From NCBI GenBank assembly GCA_027082925.1, contig JALWTD010000014.1, positions 134,393-198,392 of the forward strand: DNA of 64,000 nucleotides, given 5' to 3'. The DNA comes from Flavobacteriaceae bacterium (GTDB lineage: Bacteria; Bacteroidota; Bacteroidia; Flavobacteriales; Flavobacteriaceae). A model generated the notes under the pieces. It was given only the letters and a program-made list of their open reading frames with translations, did no database searches and was not told the DNA's origin. The stretch's first letter is position 1, and each line of letters begins with the position of its first letter. The position numbers were made by a program, and so were the translations under genes. This document shows positions 24,041 to 30,385 of the stretch, one piece after another.

Positions 24041-25504
24041 ATGAAACCTATTCAGTTTTTAATGGTGCTGCTGTGTCTAATCGTTTTAAAAGGATACGCA
24101 CAACAAAATGAGCTTCCTAACGACTTTTTAACTAAAGATTTTCATAAAGACCGACGAGAACAACTTAGAAAATCACTTCCGGCGAATAGTGTAGCTGTTT
24201 TCTTTACAAACCCTGTTAGAAACAGATCTAATGATGTTGATTATGTATACCATCAAGATCCTAATTTTTATTATTTAACCGGATACAAAGAGCCACATGC
24301 ACTTTTGCTTATTTTTAAAGACAAACAACTTATTAATGGGAAAATGTACAATGAGGTTATTTTTGTGCAAGAGCGTAATAAACGCGCCGAAATGTGGACA
24401 GGTAAAAGGCTTGGAAAAAAAGGTGTTGAAACAACTTTAGGATTTGAGCTAGCCTTTAACGGTAGCGAGTTTAAAAGCAGTGATATTGATTTTTCTAAAT
24501 TTGATAAAATAATGTTTAATTCCTTTTTTAACGATGTTAGAAACACTTCAAACAAAGCAGATTTATACGATTTAATTGAAACATTTAAAGAAAAAGTATC
24601 TTTTAATATAAAAATGGGAAACAGCTCGGTAAGTGATAAAATTTATACGGAAGCCAAAGAAAGACTAGATACCAAAACACTGACTTATTTAATGGCCAAT
24701 TTAAGAGAAATTAAAACTCCTGAAGAGTTAACACTTTTAAAAAAAGCAATTAATATTTCGGCTATTGGGCAAATTGAAATGATGAAGGCAATGCTCCCAA
24801 ATATGTCTGAAACAGAAGCGCAAGGTGTTCATGAGTTTGTTTACAAAAAATACGGCGCTGAATACGAAGGCTATCCGTCAATTGTTGGAGCAGGAAATAA
24901 TGGCTGCATTTTACACTATATAGAAAATAATAAAACTGTAATTGGAAAAGACAATTTGGTGCTCATGGATTTAGGTGCCGAATATCACGGATACACTGCC
25001 GATGTTACTAGAACCATTCCTGCAAACGGAAAATTTTCAACAACACAAAAACAAATATACGATTTGGTTTACAAGGCACAAGAAGCCGGTATAGCAACTG
25101 CAGTGGTTGGAAATAGTTTTTGGTCTCCAAGTATCATTACCAAAAAAATTATAGATGAAGGCTTGGTTAAATTAGGAATTATAGCTTCTGTAAACGAAAA
25201 ACACAATTACTATCCGCATGGTGCCTCACATCACATAGGGTTAGATGTACACGACCTTAGTAACTACGGAAATTTCAAAGAAAATATGGTTATTACTGTA
25301 GAGCCCGGAATTTACATACCAAAAGGCAGCCCGTGTGATAAAAAATGGTGGGGAATAGCCGTTAGAATTGAAGATGATATCTTAATTACAAAAAACGGAC
25401 CCGTTATTTTATCAGGAAAAGCACCTAGAACTTCAGAAGAAATTGAAAAAATGATGAAGCAAACAAGTGCTTTAAATAACTTTAATTTACCTAAACTAGA
25501 TTAA
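24041..25504 (+). CDS. Aminopeptidase P family protein (Xaa-Pro aminopeptidase, M24), exported
   Basis: Signal peptide; LMDLGAEYHGYTADVTRTIPANGKF; HGASHHIGLDVHD. Confidence 0.94.
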   Translation: MKPIQFLMVLLCLIVLKGYAQQNELPNDFLTKDFHKDRREQLRKSLPANSVAVFFTNPVRNRSNDVDYVYHQDPNFYYLTGYKEPHALLLIFKDKQLINGKMYNEVIFVQERNKRAEMWTGKRLGKKGVETTLGFELAFNGSEFKSSDIDFSKFDKIMFNSFFNDVRNTSNKADLYDLIETFKEKVSFNIKMGNSSVSDKIYTEAKERLDTKTLTYLMANLREIKTPEELTLLKKAINISAIGQIEMMKAMLPNMSETEAQGVHEFVYKKYGAEYEGYPSIVGAGNNGCILHYIENNKTVIGKDNLVLMDLGAEYHGYTADVTRTIPANGKFSTTQKQIYDLVYKAQEAGIATAVVGNSFWSPSIITKKIIDEGLVKLGIIASVNEKHNYYPHGASHHIGLDVHDLSNYGNFKENMVITVEPGIYIPKGSPCDKKWWGIAVRIEDDILITKNGPVILSGKAPRTSEEIEKMMKQTSALNNFNLPKLD

Positions 25505-26793
25505 CCCAATAAGTAACTTTTTAAATCGCTGTATTCTGAAATTTTAATGGCTACTTTTTCTTTATCCATTATTTGTTGAATTTGAGGCGGTAAACTAATC
25601 GTCTCGTCTATAACAGGCGCTACCACATCTAGAAACTTCACCGGATGTGCTGTTTCTAAAAAAACACCTTGGGCCGTCCTCGAAGCAAGGTACTTTTTCA
25701 ACCCTAAATATCCTACAGCTCCATGTGGATCTGCAATATAATTTGCGATATTTTTAAGATGCTTCATTGCCTCTAAGGTTTCTTTATCTGTAAAAGAATA
25801 AGAGGTAAGGTGCTCTTTTAATGTCTCTATATCGTGATTGTAAATTTCCAGAATACGAACAAAATTACTTGGATCTCCAACATCCATCGCATTTGATATG
25901 GTTTGAAATGAAGGTTTTGGAGAATAAACTCCGGATTTTAAATACCTAGGAACCACATCATTTACATTTGTTGATGCCACAAAATGATGAATTGGCAACC
26001 CTAATTGTTGCGCCATCATACCAGCACAAATATTACCAAAATTACCGCTTGGAATAGAAAATACAAGGTCTAAATTTTTGTTTTTCAGTTGTTTAAACGC
26101 AAAGAAAAAATAAAACATTTGAGGTAACCATCGAGCTACATTAATAGAATTGGCCGATGTTAAATTAAGACGCTCTTTTAACTCGTTATCTAAAAAAGCT
26201 TTTTTAACCATTGCTTGGCAATCGTCAAAAGTACCCTCAACCTCAAGTGCCGTAATATTTTCTCCCAGCGTAGTTAATTGTTTTTCTTGTACTTCGCTCA
26301 CCTTTCCGCTAGGGTACAAAATAACTACATTAACTCCTTTTACTCCTAAAAATCCACTTGCTACTGCACCTCCGGTATCTCCCGAAGTAGCGACTAAAAC
26401 CGTAACCTCTGTGGTATTTTCCAATTTATTAAAATAGCCCAAACACCTCGCCATAAAACGAGCACCAACATCTTTAAAAGCCATTGTTGGTCCGTGAAAT
26501 AACTCTAGCGTCGCTATATTTTCTTCTAAAAGCACCACCGGAAAATCAAAACACAAAGTGTCTTCTATTATTAACTTAAGGTCATTTTCAGGTATTTCAT
26601 CGGCAACAAACTGCTTTATCACCTCAAAAGCAATTTCATTATTTGACAAAGATTCAATTTGCTCAAAAAATTGATTTTTTAAAGGCGTTATTTTTTCCGG
26701 AAAATACAATCCTTTATCGGGTGCCAATCCCCTAATTACCGCATCTTTAAAAGATACTTCTGATGCTTTTTTATTTAAACTGTAAAATTTCAT
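25501..26793 (-). CDS. thrC: Threonine synthase
   Basis: MKFYSLNKKASEVSFKDAVIRGLAPDKGLYFPE...GPTMAFKDVGARF...VATSGDTGGAVA. Confidence 0.97.
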   Translation of the reverse strand: MKFYSLNKKASEVSFKDAVIRGLAPDKGLYFPEKITPLKNQFFEQIESLSNNEIAFEVIKQFVADEIPENDLKLIIEDTLCFDFPVVLLEENIATLELFHGPTMAFKDVGARFMARCLGYFNKLENTTEVTVLVATSGDTGGAVASGFLGVKGVNVVILYPSGKVSEVQEKQLTTLGENITALEVEGTFDDCQAMVKKAFLDNELKERLNLTSANSINVARWLPQMFYFFFAFKQLKNKNLDLVFSIPSGNFGNICAGMMAQQLGLPIHHFVASTNVNDVVPRYLKSGVYSPKPSFQTISNAMDVGDPSNFVRILEIYNHDIETLKEHLTSYSFTDKETLEAMKHLKNIANYIADPHGAVGYLGLKKYLASRTAQGVFLETAHPVKFLDVVAPVIDETISLPPQIQQIMDKEKVAIKISEYSDLKSYLLG

Positions 26794-26795
26794 TA

Positions 26796-27725
26796 TTAGT
26801 TACTTTCTAAAATATTAATTCCTGTCGGATTTATTTTTGAAACGTGAATATCAAACGCTATTCCTGTATTTTCATACACGTTATGCATAGCCTTTGCCAC
26901 TTGCTGAGCTGTTTCCTTTCCTTTACTCAATGCAAAAACAGAAGGACCCGATCCTGAAATTCCACATCCAAGAGCTCCCGATTTAATAGCTGTTTCTTTT
27001 AATGCAGCATAAGAAGGTATTAAGGCAGCACGCACCGGTTCTACAATATAGTCATGCAAAGAACGTCCAATTAAATCGTAGTCTTCCGTATAAAGTCCAC
27101 TAATTAAACCTCCTACATTTCCCCACTGCTTTACAGCATCATTTAAAAGAACCGTTTCTTTTAAAATTTTGCGAGCATCGGCGGTTTTAATTTCTATTTG
27201 AGGGTGAATAACCGTTGCATATAAATCCGTTGGCGTATGAATAGCAACAATATCTAAAGGCTCTTGACTTCTCACCAAGGTGAATCCTCCAAAAAGGGCA
27301 GGAGTTACATTATCGGCATGAGCTACTCCTGAAGCCAAACGTTCTCCTTCCATAGCAAACTGCACTAACTCTATTAAAGAAAAAGGATTTCCAAGTAATT
27401 TATTTATTGCCCAAACGGCACCTGCAGCACTAGCAGCACTGCTTCCAATTCCACTTCCTGGTTTTATTTTTTTTACAATTTCTATTTCAAATCCGGTAGT
27501 AACATTAGCCTTTTTAAGCAATGCCAAAGCAGCAACACCCGCAACATTACGATTTACTTCTAAAGGAAGTTTTTGTCCTGATATTTTAACTATTTTAACT
27601 CCTTTCTCTGAAGTTTTTCGAACAATCATTTCATCTCCAATACTTTCGAGAGCTAAACCTAAAACATCAAATCCGCATGAAACATTTGCAATGGTTGCCG
27701 GACTAAAAATTTTTATTTCTTTCAT
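26796..27725 (-). CDS. thrB: Homoserine kinase
   Basis: ATIANVSCGFDVLGLAL; KPGSGIGSSAASAAGAVWA. Confidence 0.97.
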   Translation of the reverse strand: MKEIKIFSPATIANVSCGFDVLGLALESIGDEMIVRKTSEKGVKIVKISGQKLPLEVNRNVAGVAALALLKKANVTTGFEIEIVKKIKPGSGIGSSAASAAGAVWAINKLLGNPFSLIELVQFAMEGERLASGVAHADNVTPALFGGFTLVRSQEPLDIVAIHTPTDLYATVIHPQIEIKTADARKILKETVLLNDAVKQWGNVGGLISGLYTEDYDLIGRSLHDYIVEPVRAALIPSYAALKETAIKSGALGCGISGSGPSVFALSKGKETAQQVAKAMHNVYENTGIAFDIHVSKINPTGINILESN

Positions 27726-27730
27726 TGAAA

Positions 27731-30175
27731 TTAGTTATTACCTATTCTAATAATATCGGCAAATAATCCCGAAGCCGTTACATCGGCACCTGCTCCTGCA
27801 CCCTTTATAATTAAAGGCTGCTCGTGGTATCGTTCAGTATAAAATAAAACAATATTATCTTTTCCATCAAGATTGTAAAAAGGGTGGTTTGCTGCAACTT
27901 CTTCTAAGCCTACTTTTGCAATACCCTTATCAAAAGTAGCAACATATTTTAACTTACAATTATTTTTTTCAGCACTTTCTCTAAGCGAATTAAAATGAGT
28001 CTGTTCTTGTTTTAGTGTTTCCATAAATTCGGGTACCGTAGTAGCATTTAAACTAGATTCAGGTAAAAACGAAACATTTTCAATATCTTCTAACTCCATT
28101 TTTGCACCACTTTCTCTAGCTAAAATTAATATTTTACGCATTACATCAACACCACTTAAATCTATTCTAGGGTCAGGTTCCGTATATCCTTCAATACCAG
28201 CTTGCGTTACAACCTCATAAAAGGTAGCTGATTCATTAAAATTATTAAAAATAAAATTAAGACTTCCTGATAGAACCGCTTTAATTTTAGTAACTCTATC
28301 TCCTGAAGCCACCAAGTTTTTAAGTGTGTCAATTATTGGTAACCCAGCTCCAACATTGGTTTCAAACAAAAAAGGAGCGTGGTACTCAACCGAAAGTTCT
28401 TTTAATTTCAGGTAATTTGAATACGCAGAAGAACAAGCAATTTTGTTGCATGTTACTACGGACACACTTTCTTTTAAATAACTGGCATACAGCTTAGAAA
28501 CTGCCTCGGTAGCTGTATTATCGACAAAAATGCTATTTCTATAATTCAACGTTGTTACCTTTTTATGAAAAAGATTCATATCTAAACTTACACCATTTTC
28601 AAGTTGTTCTTTCCAGTTGTGTAAATCTATTCCATCCTCATCAAAATACATTTTACGAGAATTTGTTATCGCAACTACACGTACCTCTAGTTTTAAATTT
28701 TCTAATAAATAGTGCTGTTGTTGTTTTATTTGATCTAAAAGCTTACCTCCAACATTTCCTACACCAACTACAAATAAGTTTAGCTGCTTTGTTTGATTTT
28801 TAAAAAATGTTGTATGCAACGTATTTAGGGCCTTTTTAATATCTTTATGAGCAATTACTGCCGATATATTTTTTTCTGAAGCTCCTTGGGCAATTGCTCT
28901 AATGTTTACATTATTTTTACCCAAAGTACTAAACATTTTACCACTAATTCCTTGATGACTCTTCATATTATCGCCAACCAGTGCTATAATAGCATTGTTT
29001 TTTTCTACCGTTAAGGGAGCTACTTTACGCAGGCTAATTTCGTATTCAAAAGCTGTGTCAATGGCTTTTTTTGCAATAGCAGCATCGGCATCATTTATAG
29101 CAATACATATAGAATGTTCTGATGAAGCCTGTGTTATAAGGGTAATGTTAATTTCTTTTTGAGACAAAGCTTCAAACAATCGTTTTGAAAAACCCGGTAT
29201 TCCAACCATTCCACTTCCTTCTAACGTAATTAGTGAAATGTTTTCTATATGTGTAATTCCTTTTATTGGATTGGTATTTAACGTTGTTTTGGTTATTAGC
29301 GTTCCTTCTTTATCTGCATCAAATGTATTTTTTATTGCAATTGGTATTTCTTTTTCTAATACAGGCTGGATTGTAGGAGGGTAGAGCACTTTTGCTCCAA
29401 AATGAGAGAGTTCCATAGCTTCTTGGTACGATATACTTTTAATTGGAAAGGCCTCCGGAACAAATTTTGGATTTGCCGTGTACATTCCACTCACGTCTGT
29501 CCAAATCTCCAATAAAGAAGCATTGATTGCTGCAGCAATAATTGATGCTGTATAATCAGAACCTCCTCTTCCTAACGTAGAAACTTCACCGGTTTCGGTT
29601 TTTGAAACAAAGCCCGGAAAAATAACTACTTTATGTGTATTGTTATAAAAGTAACTAGAAATGTTGGTGTTAGTTAGCTCAAACTTTACAGATGCGTTGG
29701 CATAATTATCATCTGTAACAATAAGTTCTTGAGTATTTTTAAGAGCAATATTTAACTGATTCTCTTTCATTGCTTCAAAAATAATATACGAGGATAATAA
29801 CTCTCCGTAGCTTACAATTTTATCGGAAGTTTTTGACGAAAGTTCATTTATTAGAAAAACGCCTTCTAAAATACTCTCTAAATTGGAAAGCATTTTTTTT
29901 ACTTTTTCAAGAACTGTAGATTGAGTGACTAAAGGAATCAATTCTTCGACAACTTTTAAATGTCTTTCTTCAATTTGTTTTAAACTGTTTAAATACAATT
30001 TATCTTTATTGCAAGCCATACGACCTGCATCTAATAACAAATCGGTAATACCTCCAAAGGCAGAAACTACAACAACTATTTCTTCTTTGTGAGAATTGTT
30101 CTTTACAATGTTTATAACCTTAGCGATGCTTTTAGAAGATGCAACAGATGAACCTCCAAATTTTAATACTTTCAT
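27731..30175 (-). CDS. thrA: Bifunctional aspartate kinase/homoserine dehydrogenase I
   Basis: MKVLKFGGSSVASSKSI...TLGRGGSDYTASIIAAA...VGVGNVGGKLLDQI...PDPRIDLSGVDVMRKILILARE. Confidence 0.97.
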   Translation of the reverse strand: MKVLKFGGSSVASSKSIAKVINIVKNNSHKEEIVVVVSAFGGITDLLLDAGRMACNKDKLYLNSLKQIEERHLKVVEELIPLVTQSTVLEKVKKMLSNLESILEGVFLINELSSKTSDKIVSYGELLSSYIIFEAMKENQLNIALKNTQELIVTDDNYANASVKFELTNTNISSYFYNNTHKVVIFPGFVSKTETGEVSTLGRGGSDYTASIIAAAINASLLEIWTDVSGMYTANPKFVPEAFPIKSISYQEAMELSHFGAKVLYPPTIQPVLEKEIPIAIKNTFDADKEGTLITKTTLNTNPIKGITHIENISLITLEGSGMVGIPGFSKRLFEALSQKEINITLITQASSEHSICIAINDADAAIAKKAIDTAFEYEISLRKVAPLTVEKNNAIIALVGDNMKSHQGISGKMFSTLGKNNVNIRAIAQGASEKNISAVIAHKDIKKALNTLHTTFFKNQTKQLNLFVVGVGNVGGKLLDQIKQQQHYLLENLKLEVRVVAITNSRKMYFDEDGIDLHNWKEQLENGVSLDMNLFHKKVTTLNYRNSIFVDNTATEAVSKLYASYLKESVSVVTCNKIACSSAYSNYLKLKELSVEYHAPFLFETNVGAGLPIIDTLKNLVASGDRVTKIKAVLSGSLNFIFNNFNESATFYEVVTQAGIEGYTEPDPRIDLSGVDVMRKILILARESGAKMELEDIENVSFLPESSLNATTVPEFMETLKQEQTHFNSLRESAEKNNCKLKYVATFDKGIAKVGLEEVAANHPFYNLDGKDNIVLFYTERYHEQPLIIKGAGAGADVTASGLFADIIRIGNN

Positions 30176-30271
30176 TTTATTTTTAATATGTAACGTAAAT
30201 GTGTGTGTTTGTTAACTTTCTTTTCAATTATAAAGATTTGAAAAAATACGGCAGACTGAATGATATTATAG

Positions 30272-30290
30272 AAAAAACCCCTAAGGGGTA
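30272..30290 (-). terminator. Attenuator-like hairpin: ACCCC-TTA-GGGGT followed by a T run
   Basis: Minus strand TTACCCCTTAGGGGTTTTTTC; 5-bp stem with U tract, overlapping the leader stop codon. Confidence 0.75.
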
Positions 30291-30373
30291 ATCATAATTG
30301 TAGTTGTAGCAATAATAAAAAAACGCTTAGAAATAGCGGTATTTATAGAATTGTATGTGTTTTTATATTGCAT
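30281..30373 (-). CDS. Putative thr operon leader peptide (30 aa): MQYKNTYNSINTAISKRFFIIATTTIMITP
   Basis: Not in ORF track. Reverse complement ATGCAATATAAAAACACATACAATTCTATAAATACCGCTATTTCTAAGCGTTTTTTTATTATTGCTACAACTACAATTATGATTACCCCTTAG; 6 Thr and 6 Ile codons, clustered at the 3' end; stop codon sits in a hairpin loop upstream of thrA. Confidence 0.85.
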   Translation of the reverse strand: MQYKNTYNSINTAISKRFFIIATTTIMITP

Positions 30374-30377
30374 ACTG

Positions 30378-30385
30378 CAAATGTA
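30378..30385 (-). promoter_or_regulatory. -7 promoter element TACATTTG of thrABC
   Basis: + strand caaatgta; perfect TAnnTTTG only 4 nt before the leader ATG. Confidence 0.75.

Follow-up and report, generated by a model that had tools for sequence, protein, structure and literature searches.

In the textbook view, attenuation is a competition between an antiterminator and a terminator. The thr attenuator of E. coli (RF00506) encodes a leader peptide rich in threonine and isoleucine (ThrL) directly upstream of thrABC, with ribosome stalling as the expected sensor, and combines an antiterminator with a strong terminator that carries a U-tract. The tnaC leader of the E. coli tna operon represents a Rho-dependent type with a leader peptide, no intrinsic terminator and G-poor exposed RNA near the leader stop codon; it senses free tryptophan via the nascent peptide, and the stalled ribosome shields the Rho loading site. 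Thr leaders of Bacteroidota may be listed in what is reportedly a large attenuator survey, that of Lopatovskaya in 2010 (cited in PMC4833913). In mycobacteria, leaderless poly-cysteine ORFs attenuate their operon, with control exerted at translation of the downstream gene (Canestrari 2020, as cited in PMC9031893), and Rho-dependent attenuation has been suggested for mycobacterial cys leaders (PMC1262725). For Flavobacterium psychrophilum, PMC9723704 reports strong indications that amino-acid operons are preceded by leader-peptide attenuators; its main text names conserved 5' elements at pheA and hisG, not at thrA, and describes no terminator-less type. The main text of PMC2965389 makes no mention of thrA, threonine, Bacteroides or Flavobacterium, and a search of the literature open without subscription returned no description of a terminator-less thr type with a motif conserved across the phylum.

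The window analyzed here is a stretch of 64,000 nucleotides from a Lutibacter-like Flavobacteriaceae genome, the best named relatives of which belong to Lutibacter, and all features for which window coordinates are given below lie on its minus strand. Downstream of lysA and of a short leader it encodes thrA, a bifunctional aspartate kinase/homoserine dehydrogenase I (27731..30175; NCBIfam NF006959, 1046 bits), thrB, a homoserine kinase (26796..27725; NCBIfam), and thrC, a threonine synthase (25501..26793; NCBIfam TIGR00260). An earlier sequence-only reading had described a 30-codon leader ORF, MQYKNTYNSINTAISKRFFIIATTTIMITP, 4 nt downstream of a -7 promoter element, TACATTTG, and both are present (30281..30373 and 30378..30385, respectively). 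The promoter element is of the sigma-A type TAnnTTTG and is conserved in congeners, and the ORF is conserved in the genus, the family and the phylum. As that reading also noted, the Thr/Ile control codons ACA ACT ACA ATT ATG ATT ACC (30287..30307), of which the Thr run is conserved, are clustered just 5' of a hairpin at the end of the ORF, ACCCC-TTA-GGGGT (P2, 30277..30289). The leader stop codon TAG (30281..30283) lies inside P2 and is made up of the final two loop bases and the G that begins the 3' arm. The GGGG of P2 is followed by six T in total, and the G-free tail 3' of P2 (30257..30276) opens with T5 in the window species; it contains AATATC (30262..30267), the window copy of a conserved CAUAUC motif, and is followed by an A+T-rich stem, TTTTCAA...TTGAAAA, that has no U-tract (P3, 30221..30244). 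We propose that this leader is a ribosome-controlled, threonine-responsive attenuator of a terminator-less type, here called type H, which would differ from the classic four-segment attenuator and be widespread in Bacteroidota; on present evidence this proposal can be believed about as readily as doubted.

The distribution of the layout was assessed in thrA upstream regions from the genus (Lutibacter), the family and the phylum, in which a Thr-rich ORF with a hairpin at its end was sought. The genus sample consisted of 38 Lutibacter genomes, and in the 32 thr leaders compared the Thr ORF plus P2 layout was invariably found upstream of thrA (32/32). A Thr-rich tail beside a hairpin, the pattern that the sequence-only reading had pointed to as worth seeking across Flavobacteriaceae, occurs in 79 of the 83 sampled family regions having a Thr ORF. 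The ORF is absent from 16 family regions, and in at least some of them thrA directly follows another gene (e.g. L060). In L060, L116 and L251, thrA is found immediately after the end of an ilvA-like gene, without a Thr leader. Outside the family, 24 of 34 Bacteroidota thr leaders are of the hairpin type (Thr ORF plus P2) and the other 10 are classic leaders that lack P2 and have a terminator (e.g. L217-L219, L234, L238, L245, L257 and L259), in which a stem like AAAGCCTTTCTGAATTCAGAAAGGCTTTTTT follows the ORF. The two designs barely overlap in the tallied sets, where one borderline case, L188, is the sole hairpin-type (type H) leader to pass the terminator test, by means of P2 itself and the U-run after it. 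Two records, one titled Klebsiella pneumoniae (L123) and one titled Rhodobacteraceae (L135), carry a flavobacterial thrA and leader, and are probably mislabelled or mis-binned metagenome assemblies.

Comparison of the leaders also bears on the nature of P2. Of the 152 Thr codons that overlap its 5' arm, 103 (68%) are ACC, as against 84 of 571 (15%) elsewhere in the leaders. Four lineages have the two arms exchanged (ACGGG-GUAA-CCCGU, ACGGG-GUGA-CCCGU and related forms) and keep the stop codon in or at the loop, and the arms of L223 read AUCCGC/GCGGAU. As the flipped arms and the preference for ACC codons in the 5' arm show, what is conserved in P2 is an RNA stem. Placement of the stop codon within the hairpin, which had been presented as part of the design, is seen in Lutibacter, Flavobacterium and several further families, while in other genera the stop lies 3-16 nt past the stem. 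A second hairpin, P1 (CGCT-ATTTCTA-AGCG, 30324..30338), is located within the leader ORF 5' of the Thr run; it is weak in the window species (z of 0.06) and stronger, with altered sequence, in relatives (mean z of 1.0 over 111 non-redundant leaders), and could possibly act as an early pause hairpin. Its recurrences have differing sequences, such as CGCA/UGCG, ACACAC/GUGUGU and CAACUC/GGGUUG.

The tail 3' of P2 is the second conserved part. In the 111 non-redundant leaders, G makes up at most 9%, and mostly 5% or less, at each of positions 7-20, counted from the last G of the stem; over positions 4-20 the G content is 3.5%, and G is absent altogether from 63 of 111 tails, as compared with 12.7% and 11 of 111 further on. 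The CAUAUC motif starts mostly 10-12 nt after the P2 stem core, with at least five of six matches in 63% of the tails against 17% of Markov sequences, and with all six in 30% against 1.6%. In several families it is followed by (A/G)(U/C)C(C), family identity beyond the named records being our own reading. A covariance model of P2 plus tail found one strong site per genome in the genus; weaker matches were inspected and look like chance. When 198 genomes were searched with a phylum-wide covariance model, 15 sites were found at E <= 0.05, every one of which maps by its coordinates immediately upstream of thrA. An Rfam scan of the window returned two tRNAs and no match to the leader, and neither the RF00506 Thr_leader covariance model nor the other Rfam thr models matched at gathering score or up to an E value of 10. 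Hairpins resembling P3 are found some 25-60 nt 3' of P2 in four groups of genera (L004-L032 and loci of Flavobacterium and Winogradskyella). In Winogradskyella, P3 is followed by TTTTATTCTCTT and might be a weak terminator there.

The position of the promoter suggests how translation of the leader may begin. The Flavobacterium TAnnTTTG box occupies positions -12 to -5 according to PMC9723704, and if this spacing is applied to the window, +1 falls on the A of the leader ATG (30373), so that the leader ORF is predicted to be leaderless, with its start codon at the transcription start. In the genus, all 28 sequences with a consensus box beside the ORF have a start codon exactly at the predicted +1 (24 ATG and 4 GTG); the other four have no consensus box there, and three of them (L008, L012 and L025) have, by eye, TTTTA at the same spacing. 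Elsewhere in the family, most predicted 5' UTRs are 0-18 nt long. Since leaderless mRNAs account for only 5.5% in PMC9723704, the predicted start of the thr leader is unusual. If correct, it would give a very simple loading scheme for the sensing ribosome.

To relate the position of the ribosome to P2, its leading edge was set 12 nt beyond the first base of the codon in the A site. When the A site holds the first or the second Thr codon of the run (30307 or 30304), the edge is 3-6 nt short of P2; at the third Thr codon the ribosome touches P2, and at later codons it covers it. Over the 111 leaders, a mean of 2.2 of 5.1 Thr codons leave P2 free. In constrained folding of three groups of genera, P2 forms at 0.72-0.90 with a ribosome on the first Thr codon and cannot form with a ribosome at the stop. 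Thus the idea that a stalled ribosome covers the 5' arm applies from the third Thr codon onwards and fails for the first two, and it is not a general rule, as the early Thr codons leave P2 free.

On this basis, the following sequence of events is proposed for type H leaders. Transcription is predicted to begin at or beside the leader AUG, and the ribosome could therefore load as soon as the 5' end emerges. Its speed across the Thr/Ile run would report charged tRNA-Thr, as the codons and the operon controlled lead one to expect. When threonine is ample, the ribosome would reach the stop codon inside P2, block P2 while there and then depart, leaving exposed not only P2 but also the stretch of Thr codons and the G-free CAUAUCAYC tail; polymerase would be slowed just past P2 and then released by a factor-dependent step, most likely involving Rho. 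When threonine is scarce, the ribosome would remain on the Thr run, shielding it and, at later codons, the 5' arm of P2, and polymerase would continue into thrA. P2 would thus act as a regulated pause or termination-assisting hairpin and not as a stand-alone terminator. The parts of this scheme differ in strength. Threonine-responsive control by the leader peptide is very probable, sensing being well supported and stalling being the presumed means; that the output step is at transcription is probable; and the specific version with pausing and Rho is possible, though rather doubtful, the Rho step being suggested by two features, a tail poor in G but containing C and the lack of any other terminator. 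In this step the leader would resemble tnaC and the model suggested for mycobacterial cys leaders (PMC1262725). It is a tenable, if tentative, view that P2 and the G-free CAUAUC(A/G)YC tail form a new thr-specific RNA element of the Bacteroidota, with a leaderless leader peptide that would regulate transcription with no intrinsic terminator involved, either by pausing that depends on the hairpin plus factor-dependent release or by another undescribed output. Several points count against the type H model: the six U after P2 in the window species could give weak intrinsic termination there, the same genus has classic his, ilv and phe leaders, and P2 folds in spite of a ribosome at the first Thr codon.

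Among the alternatives, the best surviving is the one advanced in the sequence-only reading, in which P2 and the U-run form an intrinsic terminator and a ribosome stalled on the Thr/Ile codons covers the 5' arm, no antiterminator being needed. The last element is supported in that no classic antiterminator was found, and a ribosome at the later Thr/Ile codons does sit over the 5' arm, but one at the first Thr codons does not reach P2. TTTTTT follows P2 in the window species, where no other site of the region looks like a terminator; a generic terminator scan found this one site against 1.1 in shuffles, and P2 alone is not significant in the window, so that the case is built wholly on comparison. 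In relatives the U-tract is not conserved: T5 occurs within the first 10 nt after P2 in 4 of 111 non-redundant tails, and T5 runs at tail positions 3-12 number 7 against 5.2 +/- 2.1 in shuffles, for which lack of enrichment the U-run was rejected as a conserved terminator. Also, the P2 stem of the window is weak (-6.2 kcal/mol) compared with the terminator stems found in the window (-11.6 to -19.3 kcal/mol). The 32 genus leaders contain no stem-plus-U-tract terminator, the P2 and U6 of the window being a weak exception, and a U-run next to P2 is peculiar to the window genome and a few others. Considering that U-runs are not enriched in relatives and that the stem is weak, the U6 is most likely incidental to the window species, in which it could possibly add weak intrinsic termination. 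Intrinsic termination at P2 is therefore an unlikely account of the leader.

A classic attenuator could also be hidden in the region, with P2 as the 1:2 pairing, the C-rich end of the tail as segment 3, P3 or its G-run as segment 4, and a 2:3 pairing of GGGG with YCC as antiterminator. In Flavobacterium, UAUAAUCC can pair with a downstream GG(A/G)U-G-UAUA, a pairing predicted by RNAalifold, and G-runs are often found 3' of the motif in other families. However, pairing between tail and GGGG amounts to about 3 bp or less in Lutibacter, the C-run is missing in some congeners, and no U-tract follows P3 in Lutibacter or Flavobacterium. A 2:3 pairing is moreover impossible in the lineages with flipped arms, where the 3' arm of P2 is C-rich and the pyrimidine cluster of the tail is nevertheless still C-rich, which indicates that the tail is not the pairing partner of P2. 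A mutually exclusive antiterminator is thus possible in Flavobacterium only, and since it fails in Lutibacter and in the flipped lineages it was rejected as a general feature, making a hidden classic attenuator quite improbable.

Equally improbable is translational attenuation, in which the leader ribosome would make the thrA start codon more or less accessible, in line with the proposal for the mycobacterial leaderless poly-cysteine ORFs (precedent cited in PMC9031893). What speaks for it is that the thr leader is a short ORF, predicted to be leaderless, with a run of the amino acid that the operon makes, and that it has no terminator. In constrained folding of type H leaders, however, the accessibility of the thrA start is 0.56/0.56/0.56, 0.63/0.64/0.62 and 0.46/0.45/0.45 in the three groups of genera when the leader is free, occupied at the stop or occupied at the first Thr codon, respectively. 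Sequestration of the start is not supported by these values, which speak against translational control, and the spacing between P2 and thrA ranges across leaders from about 67 to 264 nt. To our knowledge, P2 and the CAUAUC motif have no counterpart in the mycobacterial leaders.

That P2 and the CAUAUC tail are the binding site of a thr-specific trans-acting regulator, either protein or RNA, with the leader peptide in a secondary role, is very improbable. The element is sequence-specific, largely unpaired, phylum-wide and restricted to thrA, as such a site might be, but the Thr run and a stop codon in or beside P2 are as conserved as the motif, and no candidate factor was identified. A chance ORF beside a chance hairpin has a negligible probability: terminator-like sites of the quality of P2 do arise by chance in the region, but a chance origin of the layout is excluded, as far as comparison of sequences can do so, by its conservation across genus, family and phylum.

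Set against the described systems, type H leaders share with the E. coli thr attenuator the leader peptide, its position and the expected sensor, and differ from it in having no conserved antiterminator or terminator and a stop codon in or next to a small hairpin; that the architecture is distinct had been held in the sequence-only reading. They share with tnaC the leader peptide, the G-poor exposed RNA near the stop and the absence of an intrinsic terminator, and differ in the expected signal, which would be uncharged tRNA-Thr, and in that the role of Rho is presumptive. The sequence-only reading did not include the G-free CAUAUC tail or the predicted leaderless start, nor the classic leaders of the his, ilv and phe operons. 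The latter leaders, like the classic thr leaders of other Bacteroidota families, resemble type H in placing a short ORF that holds regulatory codons ahead of a biosynthetic operon, and differ in the stem (a long one at his and ilv) and U-tract 3' of the ORF. In the window genome, the his leader (MNFIQLHHRHFHTCTQAS with AACCCGTTTGAGCAAATCAAACGGGTTTTTT, upstream of hisG; L317) and the ilv leader (an Ile/Val leader with AAACCTTCCT...AGGAAGGTTTTTT, upstream of ilvD; L363) have stems of -15.6 and -16.5 kcal/mol, respectively, both with U-tracts, and the phe leader (MNNNTWNSFYFYFYFYNKR, upstream of PDT/pheA; L370) has a terminator-like stem with a long U-tract; all three are classic attenuators. The cell therefore does not lack the intrinsic-terminator route, and the same genus retains the textbook design at other amino-acid operons. 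At thrA, Bacteroidota appear to keep the Thr-run sensor and to replace the terminator by a small stop-codon hairpin and a G-free sequence. This defined element of about 35 nt, for which promoter, start, codons, hairpin and motif have been placed, offers a handle on transcription-translation coupling and early termination in Bacteroidota.

Two further features were observed around the thr genes of relatives. A cassette of about 90-110 nt, which opens with ATGAAACGAGCAT and contains ATGA(T/C)TAATAGCGAACAGCAT (a MINSEQH-like reading), immediately precedes thrA or thrB in L025, L140 (two tandem copies), L015, L017, L063 and L064; the copies in L025 and L140 have no Rfam match. The window genome (G000, 2.47 Mb) contains just one bifunctional gene of the thrA type at E <= 1e-100, and most congeners carry a second thrA-type gene, about 36% identical and often inside a longer open frame.
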